Positions 7,713 through 43,759 of a DNA stretch of 64,000 nucleotides are shown here, in pieces. This stretch comes from Oceanicaulis sp. HLUCCA04 (GTDB lineage Bacteria; Pseudomonadota; Alphaproteobacteria; Caulobacterales; Maricaulaceae). The stretch spans positions 236,039-300,038 of the forward strand of contig LJSH01000004.1 in the NCBI GenBank assembly GCA_001314625.1. Reading direction: 5' to 3'. How positions within the stretch are numbered: position 1 is the stretch's first letter; each line of letters starts with the position of its first letter. Below the pieces are notes generated by a model. It did not search any database, was not told where the DNA came from, and worked only from the letters and a program-made list of their open reading frames with translations. The position numbers and the translations under genes were made by a program.

Positions 7713-7834
7713 GGTGTCTCCCCCCGCTTGCGGGGGGAGTGCCGCGAAGCGGCGAGGGGGGCATTACCGAAACACCCCCCTCCGGTCCTTCGGACCACCT
7801 CCCCCGCAGGCGGGGGAGGACACCTGCTTCCCGG
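7713..7834. mobile_element. Gene-less 122 bp inverted-repeat element (MITE-like)
   Basis: The left half runs GTGTCTCCCCCCGCTTGCGG, then GGGGAGTGCCGCGAAGC and GGCGAGGGGGG. The right half, from about 7775 to 7834, is its imperfect reverse complement (CCCCCCTCCGGTCC, then CACCTCCCCCGCAGGCGGGG and GAGGACACC). The arms are about 50 bases and are separated by only about 20. Both arms resemble the ends of the DUF559 cassette at 41622-42070, with the same CTCCCCCCG-hairpin, GGGGAGTG and CCGAGGGGGG order. The element contains no gene. Confidence 0.75.
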
Positions 7835-9224: not shown

Positions 9225-9313
9225 CGTCATCCCCGCGCAGGCGGGGATCCAGCAGGTCATAGCGCTCAGGCAGTGATCGTCATTCTGGGTTCCCGCCTCC
9301 CGCGGGAACGACG
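9225..9313. repeat. Paired palindromic repeat (two inverted hairpin units)
   Basis: Unit A at 9225-9252 begins CGTCATCCCCGCGCAGG and ends GGGGATCCAG. Unit B at 9282-9313 is CTGGGTTCCCGCC...GGGAACGACG, which is the reverse complement type of A. The pair therefore forms a larger inverted repeat. A flipped copy of the same arrangement is at 14061-14150. It lies between the M19 and M20 peptidase genes, downstream of one and upstream of the other. Confidence 0.75.
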
Positions 9314-37935: not shown

Positions 37936-40709
37936 CGGTCCAGCGGCTGCGGTTCGTCCCGCTGCCCTCCCTGTCCGAGGCGTTCGAGGATGGCCGGGAC
38001 ATGCACCTGATCGGTCTTGTAATTGCCGGTCAGGGCGTACATCGCCAGATTGACGCCGACCCGGTAGGCCATTTCACGCTGACGCTCCCCGCCCTCGACG
38101 GGTAGCAGCGCCGTGCCATTATCCCGGCGCGCCCACGCACCGGCCCAGTCGGCAGAGCCGATGACGATTCCCGACACGCCGTCGCGTGCCGTGCCGTCGG
38201 GGCTGGATTCAACCCAGACATCACTGCTGCCCATCCGGCCGGGCAATTCGCGCAGCAGATAGAAGGTCCGCCCCAGCACATGATCCTCGCCGACGCGGGC
38301 AAGAGCCGGGATTTCCAGCCCGTCCATGACCTGTTCAAGGCCGGGATGGGCTCCGCCGCGCATCCCGGCCCCGCCGTCGCGCGTATCGAAAATGATCATG
38401 CCGCCTGACCGCAGATAGGCGTTGATATTGCGCGCGGCGGCGTCGGTGACAGGCCGCGCATCCGCAGTTACTGGCCAGTAGATGAGCGGGAAGAAGATCA
38501 GTTCGTCACTGGCAGGATCAACGCCGCGCGGGGCTTGCGGTTCGATCGAGCTGCGCCGCGTGACCTCGGCGGAAAGTCCCGCCAGCCCTGCTTGGCTGAC
38601 GCGGTCGGTCTCCGGGTCGCCGGTCAGGATATAGCCGAACCGGACGGCGAGCGCCCGGTCCAGTGCCTCGGCAGTGTCGCTGGACACCGCTTCGCCGTCG
38701 TCTGCCGGTTGGGCCATAGCGGGAGGCGGCGCTGCCAGCGACAGGGCGGCGATCATGGCGGCTGCGCCAGCCGCAGCGGCGCGCGATGCCCTGACAGCGG
38801 GCAGACGCCCGGCAAATGCCAGCGCGATAATCATGTCAGCGGCCAGCAGGATCAGGGCCAGCGCAAGAAGCGGCCCGCCAAAGCGCTGCTCGCGCAACCC
38901 GTCGCGTATTTCGTAAAGCGCGCCGGGCAGGTTGCGGGCCATCGGCTCCAGTCTTGTGTTCTCCCGGACTGTGTTGAGGGCGGCGCTCGCCGCGCCCAGC
39001 CGCCAGATGCCCGGCGGTGTGCCCGGTGACGCCCCGGCCGATCCAAAATCCCCTGCCGGTATGGCGCGCGGTTGCCCGGTGGGTGCGCCCAGACGGCCAA
39101 ACCCGTCCAGCGCCCGCTCTATCTGCCAGGTCCCTTCGCTGTCTGCGCCACCAGCCCCGGCCCCCTCGGCCAGCGCAATGATGCGGCGCATCATGGCCGG
39201 GAATGTCCCGGTCAGCGGCAGGCTGGACCAGTCAGGGCCAGCTGTCACGTGGACGAGCACGATCCAGCCCTCCCCGCGCCGGTCAGCCGTGACAAGCGGT
39301 GTGCCGTCCTCAAGACGTGCCCAGACCCGCCGGTCAAGATCGGCCTCGGGCTCGGCCAGCACCTGACTGCGGATGGTCGCGTCTTCGCTCGCCGATAGCC
39401 CGGCGAACGGGCTGTCATCGGCGAACGGGGCCATGCGTTGGGGTTCATCCCAGTTCAGCGCCCCGCCCAGCAGGCGGCCGCCGGTTCTGAGCCGTACTGG
39501 CAGAAGGTCGTCGCTGCGGGCGGCAAGGCGCGGTCCGGCAAAGCGGACAAGCAGTCCGCCTGCCTCCACGAATGCGGCCAGAGCCGGGTCTTCGCTGCGT
39601 GCGGCATCGACCATGACGAGGCCGGACGGTTCATCTTCGAGCACCTGTTCGAGCGGTCCGCGCACCAGTTCGGCATGGGGTGCCAGCGCCTGCTCGGCGT
39701 AATGCAGGTCAGACAGTAGCGGCTGACGGTTCTCCCCGCCCTCCGGCTCGATCAGCGCCATGCGCGGGCGCTGCCAGCTATCGTCGAGCAGCTGGACAGC
39801 GCCTGCCGAGCTGACACCCTCCACGCGCACAGAGCGCACGCGGTTTCTCAGATCGAGCGGCAGGCGTGCGGAGGCTTCCGCCTCGCGCTCCCCGGCCTCG
39901 AAACGGGCAGGGGCACGTGCAATGACCTGACCGTCCTGCGCGATGGCCGTAATTTCCACATCGCGCGCCGCGCCGCTGCCCATCCGGCGCACGCGGGCGG
40001 TAAATCCGTCAGCGGCGGCGTCCACGCGGGCAAGGGCCAGAACGTCGTCCTCAACACCGGGCAGGCTGATCGTCAGGCGTCCGCGCTCGGAGAGAACGCG
40101 GGCGAGCGTGCTGTCGCCCCCACTCTCGACGCCGTCGCTCAACCAGCGTGTTTCAAAGCTTGCCGGCGCGGTGCCTGCCTCGATTGCGGCGAGAACGCTT
40201 TCGCGCGCCGCGCCCCGGTCCGGGGGCCAGCTTTGCGGTTCTGCCGCATTCAGACGCGAGATCACGGTTCCGGCGGCAGCAAATTCGACCGCGTCCGGGT
40301 TGGCGGTCAGCAGGAGTGCAACCTGCCTGCCATCCGCATTAGCGCCGTCCAGCCAGACACGCGCCTGTGCAATCGTGCGGGGCCACGCCGCAGCGCTTTG
40401 CCAGCCATTGTCGATAACCACGAGGAGCGGGGCGTCGCTGGCGCGGGTGTCAGCGGGACGCCAGACCGGCTGGGCCAGGGCGATGACGATGATGGCTGCC
40501 GTCAACAGGCGCAGGAATATCAGCCACCAGGGCGCGCTCTGCGGGGTTTGCGGGGTCTGGGCAAGGCGTTGCAAAAGCCGCAGCGGCGCGAACACCACAT
40601 GGCGCGGTGCAGGCGGTGTGGCGCGCAGCAGCAGCCAGAGCAGCGGCAGAGCCACCAGCGCGATCAGGGCCAGCGGCGCCGCGAAGCCTATCGGACCCAG
40701 CGACACCAT
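37932..40709 (-). CDS. BatA-like N-terminal / DUF4159 membrane protein
   Basis: About 925 residues. The N-terminus (GPIGFAAPLALIALVALPLL then RATPPAPRHVVFAPLRLLQ) is the aerotolerance-operon BatA N-terminal type with two membrane spans. A long VWA-like and glutamine amidotransferase-like middle part follows. Two more helices lie at about 635-690. The C-terminal part (RFGYILTGDPETDRVSQAGL, ELIFFPLIYWPVT, MIIFDTRDG, YALTGNYKTDQVHVPAILERLG) matches DUF4159. The gene overlaps its neighbours by a few bases on both sides (TGATG and TTGA), so the three downstream genes are translationally coupled. The function is not established. Confidence 0.85.
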   Translation of the reverse strand: MVSLGPIGFAAPLALIALVALPLLWLLLRATPPAPRHVVFAPLRLLQRLAQTPQTPQSAPWWLIFLRLLTAAIIVIALAQPVWRPADTRASDAPLLVVIDNGWQSAAAWPRTIAQARVWLDGANADGRQVALLLTANPDAVEFAAAGTVISRLNAAEPQSWPPDRGAARESVLAAIEAGTAPASFETRWLSDGVESGGDSTLARVLSERGRLTISLPGVEDDVLALARVDAAADGFTARVRRMGSGAARDVEITAIAQDGQVIARAPARFEAGEREAEASARLPLDLRNRVRSVRVEGVSSAGAVQLLDDSWQRPRMALIEPEGGENRQPLLSDLHYAEQALAPHAELVRGPLEQVLEDEPSGLVMVDAARSEDPALAAFVEAGGLLVRFAGPRLAARSDDLLPVRLRTGGRLLGGALNWDEPQRMAPFADDSPFAGLSASEDATIRSQVLAEPEADLDRRVWARLEDGTPLVTADRRGEGWIVLVHVTAGPDWSSLPLTGTFPAMMRRIIALAEGAGAGGADSEGTWQIERALDGFGRLGAPTGQPRAIPAGDFGSAGASPGTPPGIWRLGAASAALNTVRENTRLEPMARNLPGALYEIRDGLREQRFGGPLLALALILLAADMIIALAFAGRLPAVRASRAAAAGAAAMIAALSLAAPPPAMAQPADDGEAVSSDTAEALDRALAVRFGYILTGDPETDRVSQAGLAGLSAEVTRRSSIEPQAPRGVDPASDELIFFPLIYWPVTADARPVTDAAARNINAYLRSGGMIIFDTRDGGAGMRGGAHPGLEQVMDGLEIPALARVGEDHVLGRTFYLLRELPGRMGSSDVWVESSPDGTARDGVSGIVIGSADWAGAWARRDNGTALLPVEGGERQREMAYRVGVNLAMYALTGNYKTDQVHVPAILERLGQGGQRDEPQPLDR

Positions 40710-41596
40710 CAAACCCGCTCCATCGCGCCGGGCGCCAGCGCCTCGTAAAGGGCCAGAACCGCGGTGCCGGCCGGCCGGTCGGTACGGTGTGTGACAAGCG
40801 TCCAGCCTGCCTTGCGCGCGATCGCCGCAATCGCCGCGCCATGTTCGGCCCAGAGGCGGCGATAGCTCTCCCGGGCATCTTCAGCCCGGCCAAGCAGCAA
40901 GGGCGCACCTTTGCCGGAGGGTTCGGCAAACCTTGTACGCCCGCTAAAGGGAAAATCGTCTTCCGCCGGGTCGATGATGCGCAACAGGATGCCGCTGGCA
41001 TTGCTGGCATTCAGGCGCGCGAGACGCGCTGCCCAGGTTTCCGGGGGATCAAGAAAATCGCTCGCCAGCACGATGCGCGCATGGCGCACGATATCGGCCT
41101 TCTCAACCGACTGGACAGCGCCCGGACCTTCGGCCAGCGCGCGCGCGGTGATCTCCAGCCCGGTGCGTCCGGTGCGGGTGCGTCCCGTCTCGCCCAGTGC
41201 CGAGATGCGTTCGCCGCCGCGCGTCAGCAAGGATGCCAGCGCCATCAGGCAAACGGCTGCGCGGTCTTTCTTCAACGGCTGGCTTCTCGATGCCAATGCC
41301 ATGCCGGGCGAGCCATCGCGCCACAGATAGACGGCATTGGCCGCTTCCCACTCGGTCTCACGCACGAAGAGTTGCTGGCTTCGCGCCGAACGCCGCCAGT
41401 CGACCGCCTGCGCCCCGTCTTCGGTGCGGTGACGGCGGTATTCCCAGAAGGTTTCGCCATGCCCTGAACGGCGGCGGCCATGCGTGCCCAGCGATGCGCT
41501 GGCAGCAATCCGCTCTGCCTCTGCCAGCAAGGCGGGGAAGGGCGCAGCGGCCTGTTCTGCCGCGCGGCGCAGGGTGGGGGATTGAGGCTGGCTCAT
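40709..41596 (-). CDS. DUF58 domain protein of the moxR operon
   Basis: This 295-residue protein has the DUF58 core signature GRRRSGHGETFWEYRRH followed by AQAVDWRRSARSQQLFVRETE and the VWA-like tail (VLASDFLDPPETW, LRIIDPAEDDFPF). DUF58 proteins are the standard partner of MoxR AAA+ ATPases. The start codon is ATG at 41596, overlapping the stop of the inserted DUF559 gene by four bases (ATGA). Stop and next start overlap as TGATG. Its natural upstream partner moxR is now separated from it by the DUF559 cassette. Confidence 0.92.
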   Translation of the reverse strand: MSQPQSPTLRRAAEQAAAPFPALLAEAERIAASASLGTHGRRRSGHGETFWEYRRHRTEDGAQAVDWRRSARSQQLFVRETEWEAANAVYLWRDGSPGMALASRSQPLKKDRAAVCLMALASLLTRGGERISALGETGRTRTGRTGLEITARALAEGPGAVQSVEKADIVRHARIVLASDFLDPPETWAARLARLNASNASGILLRIIDPAEDDFPFSGRTRFAEPSGKGAPLLLGRAEDARESYRRLWAEHGAAIAAIARKAGWTLVTHRTDRPAGTAVLALYEALAPGAMERV

Positions 41597-42015
41597 AACG
41601 GACTTTCCAGTCCGCCGGTCCCTTTCTCCCCCCGTTCACGGGGGGAGTGGCCCGGCAGGGCCGAGGGGGGGAGAGCAGCAAGTAGCGCGTCCATGACGCC
41701 ATTCAGATTGTCGTAAATGTCGGTATTCCAAACGCGCAGCACCCGCCAGCCTTCGTTTTTCAGATAGGTGGTGCGTGCCGCGTCGTGCGCCCTTTGTTTG
41801 GGACTGGAATGGGTCGCTCCATCCACCTCAATTATCAGATGGGCTTTCACACAGGCAAAGTCGGCCACATAGTTGCCAACTGGGTGCTGTCTGCGAAACC
41901 GCCAGCCATTTAGGCCTCCCCCACGGAGCCGTGACCATAGAATGGTCTCTGCGTCGGTCAGTTTTCTGCGAAGAACGCGAGCCATGGAACGGGAGCGGGT
42001 TTCTTTTTCACGCAT
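41593..42015 (-). CDS. DUF559 (Vsr-like) endonuclease-domain protein, in an inverted-repeat cassette
   Basis: About 140 residues. The core reads RVLRRKLTDAETILWSRLR, FRRQHPVGNYVADFACVKAH, LIIEVDGATHS and YLKNEGWRVLRVWNTDIYDN. This is the DUF559 fold, related to very-short-patch-repair and other PD-(D/E)xK nucleases. The candidate metal residues are Asp in YVADFAC and Glu in IIEVDG. The start at 42015 sits just after GGAGGGGGGATAT, a ribosome site formed by the repeat arm itself. The C-terminal about 25 residues (ALPGHSPRERGEKG) are read out of the other repeat arm, so they are unlikely to be ancestral. The longer frame to 42108 also reads through the repeat. It splits moxR from DUF58, and its biological role is unknown. 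Confidence 0.85.
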   Translation of the reverse strand: MREKETRSRSMARVLRRKLTDAETILWSRLRGGGLNGWRFRRQHPVGNYVADFACVKAHLIIEVDGATHSSPKQRAHDAARTTYLKNEGWRVLRVWNTDIYDNLNGVMDALLAALPPSALPGHSPRERGEKGTGGLESPL

Positions 42016-42070
42016 ATATCCCCCCTCCGTCAGCTGCGCTGACACCTCCCCCGTAAACGGGGGAGGAAAG
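41622..42070. mobile_element. Putative DUF559 mobile cassette with about 50 bp inverted ends
   Basis: One end (41622-41671) reads CTTTCTCCCCCCGTTCACGG then GGGGAGTGGCCCGGCAGGG and CCGAGGGGGG. The other end (42020-42070) is an imperfect inverted copy: CCCCCTCCGTCAGC, GCTGACACCTCCCCCGT and AAACGGGGGAGGAAAG. Only the DUF559 gene lies between them. It is placed cleanly in the intergenic space between moxR (ends 42112) and DUF58 (starts 41596), leaving about 41 and 25 bases of flank. The gene-less element at 7713-7834 has the same end structure. Confidence 0.6.
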
Positions 42071-42111
42071 AGCGATGGCGAAGGCGAACCGAGAAATCCA
42101 CTGGCCAATTT

Positions 42112-43110
42112 TTACGCTGCCTCGGAGGCGAGCCGTGCAATCAGCCGGTCAACATTGAGCCCGTCTGCCCTGGCTGCAAAGGTCAGCGCCATGCGGTGCT
42201 TGAGAACCGGACCTGCCAGCGCGGCGACGTCCTCGGTTGACGGCGCAAGCCGCCCCTGAAGAAGCGCGCGGGCGCGGACGGCCAGCATCAGGGCCTGACC
42301 GCCTCTCGGGCCGGGACCCCATGCTACCGCTTCGGCGACCTCGCCATCGGCGGACCCGTCGGGTCTGGCGCGCGCCAGCAGGTCGAGAATGGCCTTGAGG
42401 GTCTGCTCGCCAACGGGCATGGCCCGAACCAGTGCCTGAAGATTGGTCAGCTCCTGCGCGTCGAGCACCGGCGCAGCGCTGTCTTCTTCCGTGCCGGTAG
42501 TGGCGATCAGGATCGCGCGCTCGGCTTCACGCGTGGGATAGGGCACGTCGATCTGCATCGTGAACCGGTCAAGCTGGGCTTCAGGCAGCGGATAGGTGCC
42601 TTCCTGCTCGATCGGGTTCTGGGTGGCGAGCACATGGAAGGGTTTTGGCAGATCATGACGCACGCCCGCGACCGTAACGAAACCCTCCTGCATGGCCTGC
42701 AGGAGCGCGGCTTGTGTGCGCGGGCTGGCCCGGTTGATCTCGTCGGCCATCAATAGCCGGGTAAAGACGGGGCCGGGAATGAAGCGGAAACTGCGCTTGC
42801 CGGCGGCGTCCTCTTCAAGAACTTCGGAGCCGACAATGTCAGCCGGCATCAGGTCGGGGGTGAACTGGACACGCTTGTCATCCAGGCCCGTGACGACCGC
42901 GAGCGTGTGTACCAGCCGCGTCTTGGCAAGGCCCGGCGCGCCGACCAGAAGGCCGTGGCCTCCTGACAGCAATACACACAAGGCTTGCTCGACCACCTCT
43001 TCAAGGCCGAAGATGGAGCGGGCGATCGAGGCACGCACCTCGGCGAGCCGCACGGTGGCGGCATCGGCGCGGGCTGCAAGCTGGCTGACATCTTCATTCG
43101 GCGCGGTCAT
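42112..43110 (-). CDS. MoxR family AAA+ ATPase
   Basis: This 332-residue AAA+ protein has Walker A GAPGLAKTR, the segment VQFTPDLMPADIVGSEV, Walker B LLMADEINRASPRTQAALLQAM, VLATQNPIEQEGTYPLPEAQLDRF and the sensor-2 region, all standard for MoxR. MoxR ATPases act as chaperones for metal insertion or envelope-protein maturation together with DUF58 and VWA proteins. It is the first gene of the minus-strand operon that continues with DUF58, the BatA-like and the VWA protein. The start at 43110 is the first Met after the divergent DUF1285 gene region and gives the usual MoxR length. Confidence 0.95.
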   Translation of the reverse strand: MTAPNEDVSQLAARADAATVRLAEVRASIARSIFGLEEVVEQALCVLLSGGHGLLVGAPGLAKTRLVHTLAVVTGLDDKRVQFTPDLMPADIVGSEVLEEDAAGKRSFRFIPGPVFTRLLMADEINRASPRTQAALLQAMQEGFVTVAGVRHDLPKPFHVLATQNPIEQEGTYPLPEAQLDRFTMQIDVPYPTREAERAILIATTGTEEDSAAPVLDAQELTNLQALVRAMPVGEQTLKAILDLLARARPDGSADGEVAEAVAWGPGPRGGQALMLAVRARALLQGRLAPSTEDVAALAGPVLKHRMALTFAARADGLNVDRLIARLASEAA

Positions 43111-43183
43111 GAGCCTATGTCCTTGGTTCGCATTGCTGTTGCCCCCATTTATGCAGCATGCCCCGCTGAAGCTTGAGGTGTCC

Positions 43184-43759
43184 ATGGGTTCACAGCGCTC
43201 AAAGACGGATGGAATGCAGTCCCTGCTCGAGGCTGCGCGCGATTCCGGCAAGGGATTGCCGCCGGTTGACCGCTGGCATCCTGAATATTGCGGCGAAATG
43301 GACATGGTCATCCGCCGTGACGGAAGCTGGTGGCATGAAGGCACGCGCATCGGCCGGACGGCGCTGGTGCGCCTGTTCGCCCGCATTCTGAGAAAAGATG
43401 AGGATGGCGAAACCTATCTTGTCACCCCGGCAGAGAAAATCCGCATCGTGGTCGAGGCCGGTCACTTTCTGGCGGTGCGCGTCGATGCCCTAGGCGAGGG
43501 CGAGGCGCAAAAGCTCGTGTTTACGACCGATCACGAAGAACAAGTTGTGGCCGGGCCGGATCACCCGTTGCGCATCGCCTTTGGCAAGGATGGCGAGCCG
43601 GAACCTTATGTCCATGTGCGCGGGCGGCTTGAGGCCTTGCTGACCCGGCCCGTCTATTACGAGCTGGCCAATCTGGCCGTCGAGGGACGCGCGCCCGATG
43701 GCCGCCAATGCCTGGGCGTCTGGTCGGACGGCATGTTCGTCCCGCTGGAGCGGGGTTGA
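43184..43759 (+). CDS. DUF1285 family protein
   Basis: About 191 residues from the ATG at 43184, which has a TTGAGGTG site. The family features are PPVDRWHPEYCGEMDMVIRRDGSWWHEG near the N-terminus, the segment RIGRTALVRLFARIL, YLVTPAEKIRIVVEAGHF and a C-terminal ELANLAVEG with GVWSDGMFVPL. DUF1285 proteins are small soluble proteins common in alphaproteobacteria without a settled function. Its stop TGA shares one base with the ATG of the NUDIX gene, so the pair is co-translated. An upstream Met at 43151 is less likely. Divergent from moxR. Confidence 0.9.
   Translation: MGSQRSKTDGMQSLLEAARDSGKGLPPVDRWHPEYCGEMDMVIRRDGSWWHEGTRIGRTALVRLFARILRKDEDGETYLVTPAEKIRIVVEAGHFLAVRVDALGEGEAQKLVFTTDHEEQVVAGPDHPLRIAFGKDGEPEPYVHVRGRLEALLTRPVYYELANLAVEGRAPDGRQCLGVWSDGMFVPLERG

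Follow-up and report, generated by a model that had tools for sequence, protein, structure and literature searches.

The window analysed here, a stretch of 64,000 nucleotides from contig LJSH01000004.1 of Oceanicaulis sp. HLUCCA04, harbours a short cassette in which a single gene for a DUF559 protein is enclosed by two motifs that, judged by their sequence, have the anatomy of a purine-motif intrastrand triplex, i.e. the BoxC, PIT or triplex motif (TM) of E. coli. The association of DUF559 genes with TMs is solid, and structure, orientation, matching and co-occurrence make it very likely that gene and motif represent a functional pair. It is probable that the cassette is the autonomous form of a mobile repeat with triplex ends, that DUF559 is the cognate nuclease recognising these ends, and that doublets of the same motifs without the gene are its non-autonomous copies.

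Three-block ends of the DUF559 cassette

Read toward the gene, arm A (42020-42066, minus strand) comprises a hairpin at 42045-42066 (CCTCCCCC/GGGGGAGG), a TG, a stem-loop at 42030-42042 and a third strand, GGAGGGGGG, at 42020-42028, in the order CCTCCCCC-G-loop-C-GGGGGAGG-TG-TCAGC..GCTGA-C-GGAGGGGGG. Arm B (41626-41671, plus strand) reads CTCCCCCC-G-loop-C-GGGGGGAG-TG-GCCC..GGGC-C-GAGGGGGGG, with its hairpin (CTCCCCCC/GGGGGGAG) at 41626-41647, TG, a stem-loop at 41650-41661 and, pointing toward the gene, the third strand GAGGGGGGG at 41663-41671. The two arms are variants of one three-block motif, variant B being CTCCCCCC-loop-GGGGGGAG-TG-stemloop-GAGGGGGG. Within an arm, the first and last blocks are parallel complements (CCTCCCCC/GGAGGGGG and CTCCCCCC/GAGGGGGG), and both arms display the Y-strand, loop, R-strand, link and mirror-polarity third strand of a class II TM, in which a C/T-rich hairpin is followed by a third strand mirroring the purine strand of that hairpin. 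The original prediction had described inverted ends of approximately 50 bp; the ends are real, as local alignment of either flank to its counterpart in reverse-complemented form gave a score of 14 that was reached by none of 100 shuffles, but they are TMs. A plain inverted repeat was ruled out, as the ends are two related three-block motifs that give no inverted pair at default repeat-search settings.

Among arms collected from relatives the third strand covaries with the hairpin, the mean match being 0.937 as compared to 0.830 after permutation (standard deviation 0.007, maximum 0.851, 200 permutations). The commonest hairpin and third-strand partners in these arms are CCTTCTCCC/GGATGAGGG, CCCTCTCCC/GGGTGAGGG, CCCCTCCCC/GGGGTGGGG and CCTTCCCCC/GGATGGGGG, from which single arms deviate. 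For 93 asymmetric arms the mirror order fitted better in 67, the direct order in 4 and both equally in 22, and the fit was perfect in 52 arms for the mirror order as compared to 9 for the direct order.

The enclosed gene (41593-42015, minus strand) was assigned by profile match and fold to PF04480 as a YcjD-like, Vsr-fold nuclease; the window frame 41593-42108 (minus strand) matches DUF559 with an E-value of 8.9e-36 and 122.5 bits against a curated cut-off of 20.6, and profile search found one copy in the host genome. The ATG adjoining arm A, at 42013-42015, gives a protein of about 140 amino acids, and directly 5′ of this ATG the third strand of arm A doubles as a Shine-Dalgarno-like sequence. 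At its other end the frame continues through arm B, which provides the C-terminal codons, to a TGA at 41593-41595 that overlaps the ATG (41594-41596) of the DUF58 gene. Both neighbours, moxR (AAA_3; 42112-43386, minus strand) on the 5′ side and the DUF58 gene (40709-41596, minus strand) on the 3′ side, were identified by profile match and have open frames. The original prediction had proposed that one arm provides the Shine-Dalgarno sequence, that the other is read as the C-terminus and that the cassette lies between moxR and DUF58 without damage to either, and all of this agrees with the sequence. A search of 41400-42300 for known structured RNAs gave no Rfam match at E-values up to 1.

Gene-less relatives of the cassette are dispersed through the host genome, where 14 palindrome pairs, spaced 76-105 bp apart, lack a gene (counted by reading the match list) and one further pair, 419 bp apart, is that holding the DUF559 gene. 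The A and B ends recur in the doublets, where they enclose short, variable spacers, frequently with TTTC outside one side and GAAA outside the other. One of them, at 7718-7819 of the window, has both ends as in the cassette and corresponds to the gene-less copy that had been placed at 7713; the count of such copies that had been suggested as a check thus stands at 14 pairs for a single DUF559 gene. Genome-wide, the palindrome pattern gave 44 and 42 matches on the two strands as compared to 12 and 11 for the reversed pattern, and the three-block pattern gave 19 matches, corresponding to 13 distinct motifs, as compared to none when reversed; within the 64-kb window alone, the 3 palindrome matches were reached by 17 of 100 shuffles and are not above chance. 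Runs of N in the spacers of two doublets (L004, L009) are perhaps assembly gaps at hairpins. Palindromes of the form ATCCCCGC..GCGGGGAT at window positions 9229, 14125, 14172 and 14214, in which the third block is absent by eye, appear to form a second family of intergenic repeats unrelated to the first.

The position of the Shine-Dalgarno-like third strand, with a similar layout at L032/L064, would suit motifs that are only a ribosome-binding site in front of the gene and a terminator behind it. Such a role is highly improbable: it is largely refuted by the 14 gene-less pairs, TM matches far exceed DUF559 genes in some genomes (393 as compared to 2 in G117), and PIT elements were described as acting neither as promoters nor as terminators (Holder et al. 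2015, PMC4666352).

The predicted model of the window's DUF559 protein has a mean predicted local distance difference test score (pLDDT) of 83, with most of the domain core above 88. Its closest fold is 3hrl (Z 16.3), by sequence a DUF559 protein itself. The homing endonuclease I-Bth0305I was matched with Z 13.0 and a root-mean-square deviation of 2.5 over 95 residues, indicating a homing-type fold, and Vsr with Z 10.7, identity to both being low (20-26%). Residues D45, E56, D58 and H62 are invariant in 34 sequences including that of the window, and by analogy are taken to represent a PD-(D/E)XK/Vsr-type active site. Against the Vsr mismatch endonuclease profile TIGR00632 the protein scored 29.4 bits, below the cut-off of 97.85, and its gene, situated between moxR and DUF58, is not in an intron, an intein or a conserved coding target of the kind associated with homing genes. 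TnsA-like transposition was set aside, as the fold match to TnsA is weak (Z 6.9), and an anti-phage role was rejected, PADLOC having returned, for the window's protein, only partial matches to large proteins (best E-value 3e-07, PDC-S37) and none for YcjD. In Caulobacter, VsrA, a predicted mismatch-repair nuclease with a DUF559 domain, is required for the DNA damage (SOS) response when a cytosine methyltransferase is missing (PMC12907096), thereby suggesting that at least one DUF559 member damages DNA in cells.

Association of DUF559 genes with triplex motifs

The pairing was assessed at 218 DUF559 loci, namely 90 from relatives, 48 from a phylum-wide sample consisting mostly of best-scoring matches, and 80 named loci, which are the best 80 of at least 546 confirmed and for most of which the domain was given a 3′ end at 330 bases. 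For the relatives, 12 loci were left out, as they lay at contig ends, were split or short, belonged to long proteins or, for one gene, stood 1.4 kb from the end of its contig. L027 and L193 denote one locus, and L059 and L061 are adjacent with overlapping loci. A TM, scored by a finder that required at least 8 C/T and at most one mismatch overall, was present within approximately 300 bp at 185 of the 218 loci (74/90, 44/48 and 67/80 in the three sets) and on both sides of the gene at 125 (45, 29 and 51), such that flanking repeats accompany the gene at most of the loci sampled, as expected under the original prediction. TM density near DUF559 was 2.52, 3.33 and 3.14 per kb for the relatives, the phylum-wide sample and the named loci, as compared to 0.141, 0.115 and 0.064 per kb at more than 500 bp from the gene. 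The same finder detected no TM, near or far, at any of 28 ParE toxin loci of the relatives (30 loci, of which 2 were dropped as cut). An inverted-flank test that is blind to triplexes gave a score of at least 15 for 60 of the 90 DUF559 genes of relatives, for 131 of 1941 mismatched flank pairs and for 1 of 178 pseudo-genes in the same loci.

By record title, the named loci with a TM belong to Pseudomonadota, Desulfobacterales, Chloroflexi, Planctomycetota, Spirochaetes, Nitrospirae, Verrucomicrobia, Gastranaerophilales and a cyanobacterium. At L327, on the Picosynechococcus plasmid pAQ6, short TTCCCCC..GGGGG-link-GGGGG motifs stand on both sides of DUF559 and are likely a cyanobacterial form of the triplex end; such short motifs escape the TM finder owing to its requirement for at least 8 C/T. 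It may be argued that TMs spread by replication slippage or recombination and that DUF559, caught between two of them, simply hitch-hikes. Recombination between motif repeats does occur (E. coli alx-sstT) and TM-rich genomes without a DUF559 match exist, yet the pairing recurs in many phyla, with proteins and end classes that have diverged, and the 28 ParE toxin loci of the same relatives are devoid of TMs, which makes a passenger role for DUF559 very unlikely.

The orientation and sequence of the ends are likewise related to the gene. Third strands point toward the gene in 98 of the 125 two-sided loci, away from it in 10 and in the same direction in 17, and the median distance of the TM from DUF559 is 41 bp on the 5′ side and 16 bp on the 3′ side. 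Left and right ends have the T-pattern class in common at 74 of the 125 loci (permuted mean 24.9, maximum 39 of 2000 permutations) and the state of the extra stem-loop at 103 (permuted mean 66.4, maximum 85). When each protein was compared with its nearest neighbour in another genome, the end class agreed in 65 of 185 cases (permuted mean 17.0, maximum 33), an effect that is weaker among distant nearest neighbours (31 of 130; permuted mean 12.0, maximum 24). As two DUF559 genes of one genome also differ in end class in 67 of 94 pairs, the ends appear to go with the protein and not only with the host. At L326 (Sinorhizobium sp. K101 plasmid) and at L020/L046 (both in genome G030), DUF559 is enclosed by two complete doublets, near-direct copies of each other, in a composite arrangement unlike that of the window's cassette.

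A nuclease of repair or structure processing, acting on TMs or on unmethylated or mismatched sites to limit the damage caused by TMs and mobilising nothing, would also be linked to TMs. For such a caretaker role speak the link of TMs to genome instability in E. coli (PMC4666352) and the dependence of the SOS response on VsrA, with its DUF559 domain and predicted mismatch-repair function (PMC12907096). Substrate flanks that are two-sided, inward-facing and matched in class are not needed by a caretaker, nor is the difference in end class between DUF559 genes of one genome, and we regard this explanation as quite unlikely.

Co-occurrence was further determined with a whole-genome pattern that covers several TM classes; it misses some ends, e.g. 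the B arms of the host genome, and can count one motif repeatedly via overlapping matches, as with the 19 matches for 13 motifs above. Among 160 Pseudomonadota genomes, at least 10 TM matches were present in 30 of the 36 with DUF559 (E-values up to 1e-14) as compared to 9 of the 124 others, which include 15 with a weak match only, mostly inside long open frames. Among 61 relatives the same number of matches was reached by 24 of the 39 with any DUF559 match and by 5 of the 22 without. Kinship of the genomes inflates such tests. Within genera, bearers of DUF559 were richer in TMs in 10 cases, poorer in 1 and tied in 2, with contrasts as marked as 242 to 0 (G148/G152) and 125 to 0 (G102/G165). 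The repeats are accordingly commoner in genomes with DUF559, as the original prediction required, and not equally common in those without it. A RAYT as the true mobiliser was ruled out: the RAYT-family domain Y1_Tnp (PF01797) gave no match in the host genome, and its distribution among the 61 relatives (present in 11, absent in 50) bears no relation to TM number.

The pairing is also encountered in E. coli, where ycjD is the DUF559 gene of K-12 (PF04480, E-value 1.4e-49). One of the 23 BoxC copies listed for K-12, at 1351204-1351239 (Table 1 of PMC4666352), is situated 168 bp from the 3′ end of ycjD, and a second motif, by eye intact in strain S1-SRB-02-B and 12 bp short in K-12, overlaps that 3′ end; no 5′ motif was seen at ycjD. 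The 12-bp gap of the K-12 motif fits the ycjD of ST69/ST182, which is longer by 12 nt (PMC12817139). Of 5375 matching genomes, 3362 have at least 80% of the ycjD region covered, and two other E. coli genomes read at this site carry an efflux operon there, as has been described (PMC12817139). E. coli was therefore rejected as a source of clean empty sites, the alleles read at ygfF-gcvP being likewise replaced or deleted.

Signs of movement and the proposed mechanism

Cassettes at unrelated positions are among the signs of movement. In genome G030 the two cassettes L020 and L046 are identical at 664 of 672 positions and have unrelated flanks, and their identity starts and stops no more than a few bases from the outer edges of the motifs; no target-site duplication is evident at either. 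Less similar cassette pairs in G022, G014, G028 and G180 give alignments that also end near the motifs. The search for empty sites that had been suggested as a check gave relatives without the cassette at the window's own locus: the cassette occupies the same moxR/DUF58 site in G001 and G002 (DUF559 75-80% identical), and the site is without it in 6 of the 8 relatives read (G003, G004, G005, G009, G015, and G006 with a weaker flank match). As G004 is nested among the cassette bearers in the tree of flanking genes (support 68-89), loss of the cassette is suggested there, and this genome may have lost DUF559 recently. On Azospirillum plasmids the region was present in all seven Azospirillum records found, with no empty allele among them.

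Three gene-less doublets were aligned with relatives. For the first, G003 and G005 show an empty site that is almost seamless; the second is also present in G004 and absent in G005; and the third is complete in G000 only, a single B-type hairpin being left in G002 and G004; in several other sister species the same spots hold unrelated sequence. At two of the spots (L005, L006), G001, G002 and G004 carry different insert-like sequences (e.g. TTTCACCGGCGAAAGCCGGTGCCCAG) where the host has a triplex doublet, as if the same intergenic spots took up different repeat families. At L005 one B-type hairpin is also kept in G002 and G004.

That DUF559 moves the TM is the simplest account of these observations and the one that we favour, homing into doublets being its main rival. 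It may be envisaged that, when the region becomes single-stranded during replication or repair, each end would fold into a hairpin with the third strand laid back on it. DUF559, as a Vsr/homing-type PD-(D/E)XK hydrolase, would then bind two facing ends and cut at or beside the bound TMs, and the freed unit, or a copy of it, would be joined elsewhere. The joining would have to be performed by host repair, since strand joining is not expected of a hydrolase with this fold. We infer that DUF559 binds and cuts the TM and thereby causes its spread. The original prediction had cast DUF559 as the mobiliser by analogy with REP-associated transposases; the anatomy fits that proposal, but the nuclease-driven movement itself is a proposal, and three TM-rich genomes gave no DUF559 match.

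These genomes are among several points that weigh against mobilisation by DUF559. DUF559 matches were absent from G197 (150 TM matches, 87% complete), G113 (61 TM matches) and G004 (40 TM matches, 2 contigs, 100% complete), owing either to recent loss, to assembly gaps or to another mobiliser. Conversely, 5 of the 36 genomes with DUF559 have no TM match, and the finder scored no TM at 33 of the 218 DUF559 loci and neither of the K-12 copies at ycjD. In the window's genus, three species (80-86% identical) retain the cassette at a single site, and it is thus not a lively mover. At the empty sites no target-site duplication was resolved and the edges are not sharp, as the flanks are only about 70-90% identical. 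In E. coli, alx-sstT (L258) shows the loss of one BoxC motif and not an insertion, one motif of the pair having been deleted in CFT073 between direct repeats of CCCTCTCCC. Moreover, we know of no means of strand joining for a PD-(D/E)XK hydrolase, and the association of DUF559 with the TM is not causation. Finally, in vivo footprinting in E. coli showed no stable triplex (Holder et al., PMC4666352).

In the homing alternative, DUF559 would cut gene-less doublets that had spread by other means, and recombination would copy its gene into the cut doublets. The closest fold outside DUF559 is that of the homing endonuclease I-Bth0305I, the gene occupies the position of a doublet spacer between A and B ends like those of gene-less copies, and some genes lie between two complete doublets (L326; L020/L046), all of which agree with homing. 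This model, however, leaves the dispersal of the doublets unexplained, though TM number tracks the presence of DUF559, and a recent arrival in any doublet would blur the matching of the ends to each other and to the protein that was observed. Homing is, on balance, an unlikely alternative to mobilisation of the TM by DUF559.

Comparison with known systems

DUF559 is still classed as a domain of unknown function, and its pairing with BoxC gives each a testable function. DUF559 is a good candidate for the agent spreading BoxC, a repeat family without a known dispersal agent, and E. coli K-12, which harbours both ycjD and the 23 listed BoxC copies, makes the pairing directly testable. Evenly balanced is the broader proposal of a new class of mobile element with three-stranded ends, in which DUF559 would spread triplex hairpins together with its own gene in many phyla, BoxC/PIT would be non-autonomous descendants and ycjD the remaining nuclease gene. 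Should mobilisation by DUF559 be correct, a hydrolase of Vsr/homing fold would do for the TM what HUH transposases do for REP, and the triplex fold would be a mark read by a nuclease, i.e. a natural role for intrastrand DNA triplexes.

For the motif of E. coli, formation of a stable triplex has been reported in vitro, and it occurs between genes, near variable loci and in inverted A+B pairs (Holder et al. 2015, PMC4666352). Like the arms described here, BoxC/PIT/TM is a class II three-block motif with A and B variants whose pairs are about 100 bp across; unlike here, that paper, in the part consulted, describes no partner gene; it reports no association with mobile elements, and its main text contains neither the word DUF559 nor endonuclease. 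The arms examined here, unlike BoxC/PIT/TM, often have an additional, variable stem-loop that separates the hairpin from the third strand. A search of the open-access literature, preprints lying outside it, found no paper linking DUF559 to a triplex, in keeping with the original prediction, for which no description of such a role for DUF559 was known. Among open-access papers with the word DUF559, no title names DUF559 mobility or repeats spread by DUF559; for BoxC and transposase only pneumococcal BOX repeats and Holder et al. were found; intrastrand triplex and transposition gave no DUF559 work by title; and PF04480 was not named in any of the open-access matches listed.

YcjD belongs to the same Pfam family as the window's protein and has a BoxC copy near, and a second motif over, the 3′ end of its gene, from which the window's cassette differs in that the K-12 3′-end motif is truncated and a 5′ motif was not seen. 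I-Bth0305I and Vsr resemble DUF559 in the fold of the catalytic domain; they differ in sequence, identity being low and the score below the Vsr family cut-off, and the gene here is intergenic and not in an intron or conserved gene. TnsA of Tn7 is a PD-(D/E)XK nuclease that serves transposition and works together with a DDE transposase, whereas the window's cassette has one gene only.

The REPtron (RAYT/TnpA-REP with REP/REPIN) resembles the system described here in that one gene is flanked by repeats and accompanied by many gene-less doublets (here one DUF559 gene and 14 pairs). It differs in that the enzyme is a Y1/HUH transposase, as compared to the Vsr-fold hydrolase of a host without a Y1_Tnp match, and in that the ends are GTAG-tagged palindromes as compared to triplexes. 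Ends that are matched to the protein and a gene that is vertically kept are common to both (PMC3733652), and the GTAG (or CGTC) end tags of REP were not encountered in the arms, which end in the third strand (GGAGGGGGG or GAGGGGGG). By analogy, the best reading is that DUF559 and the TM would work together as RAYT and REP do, with parts that are unrelated.

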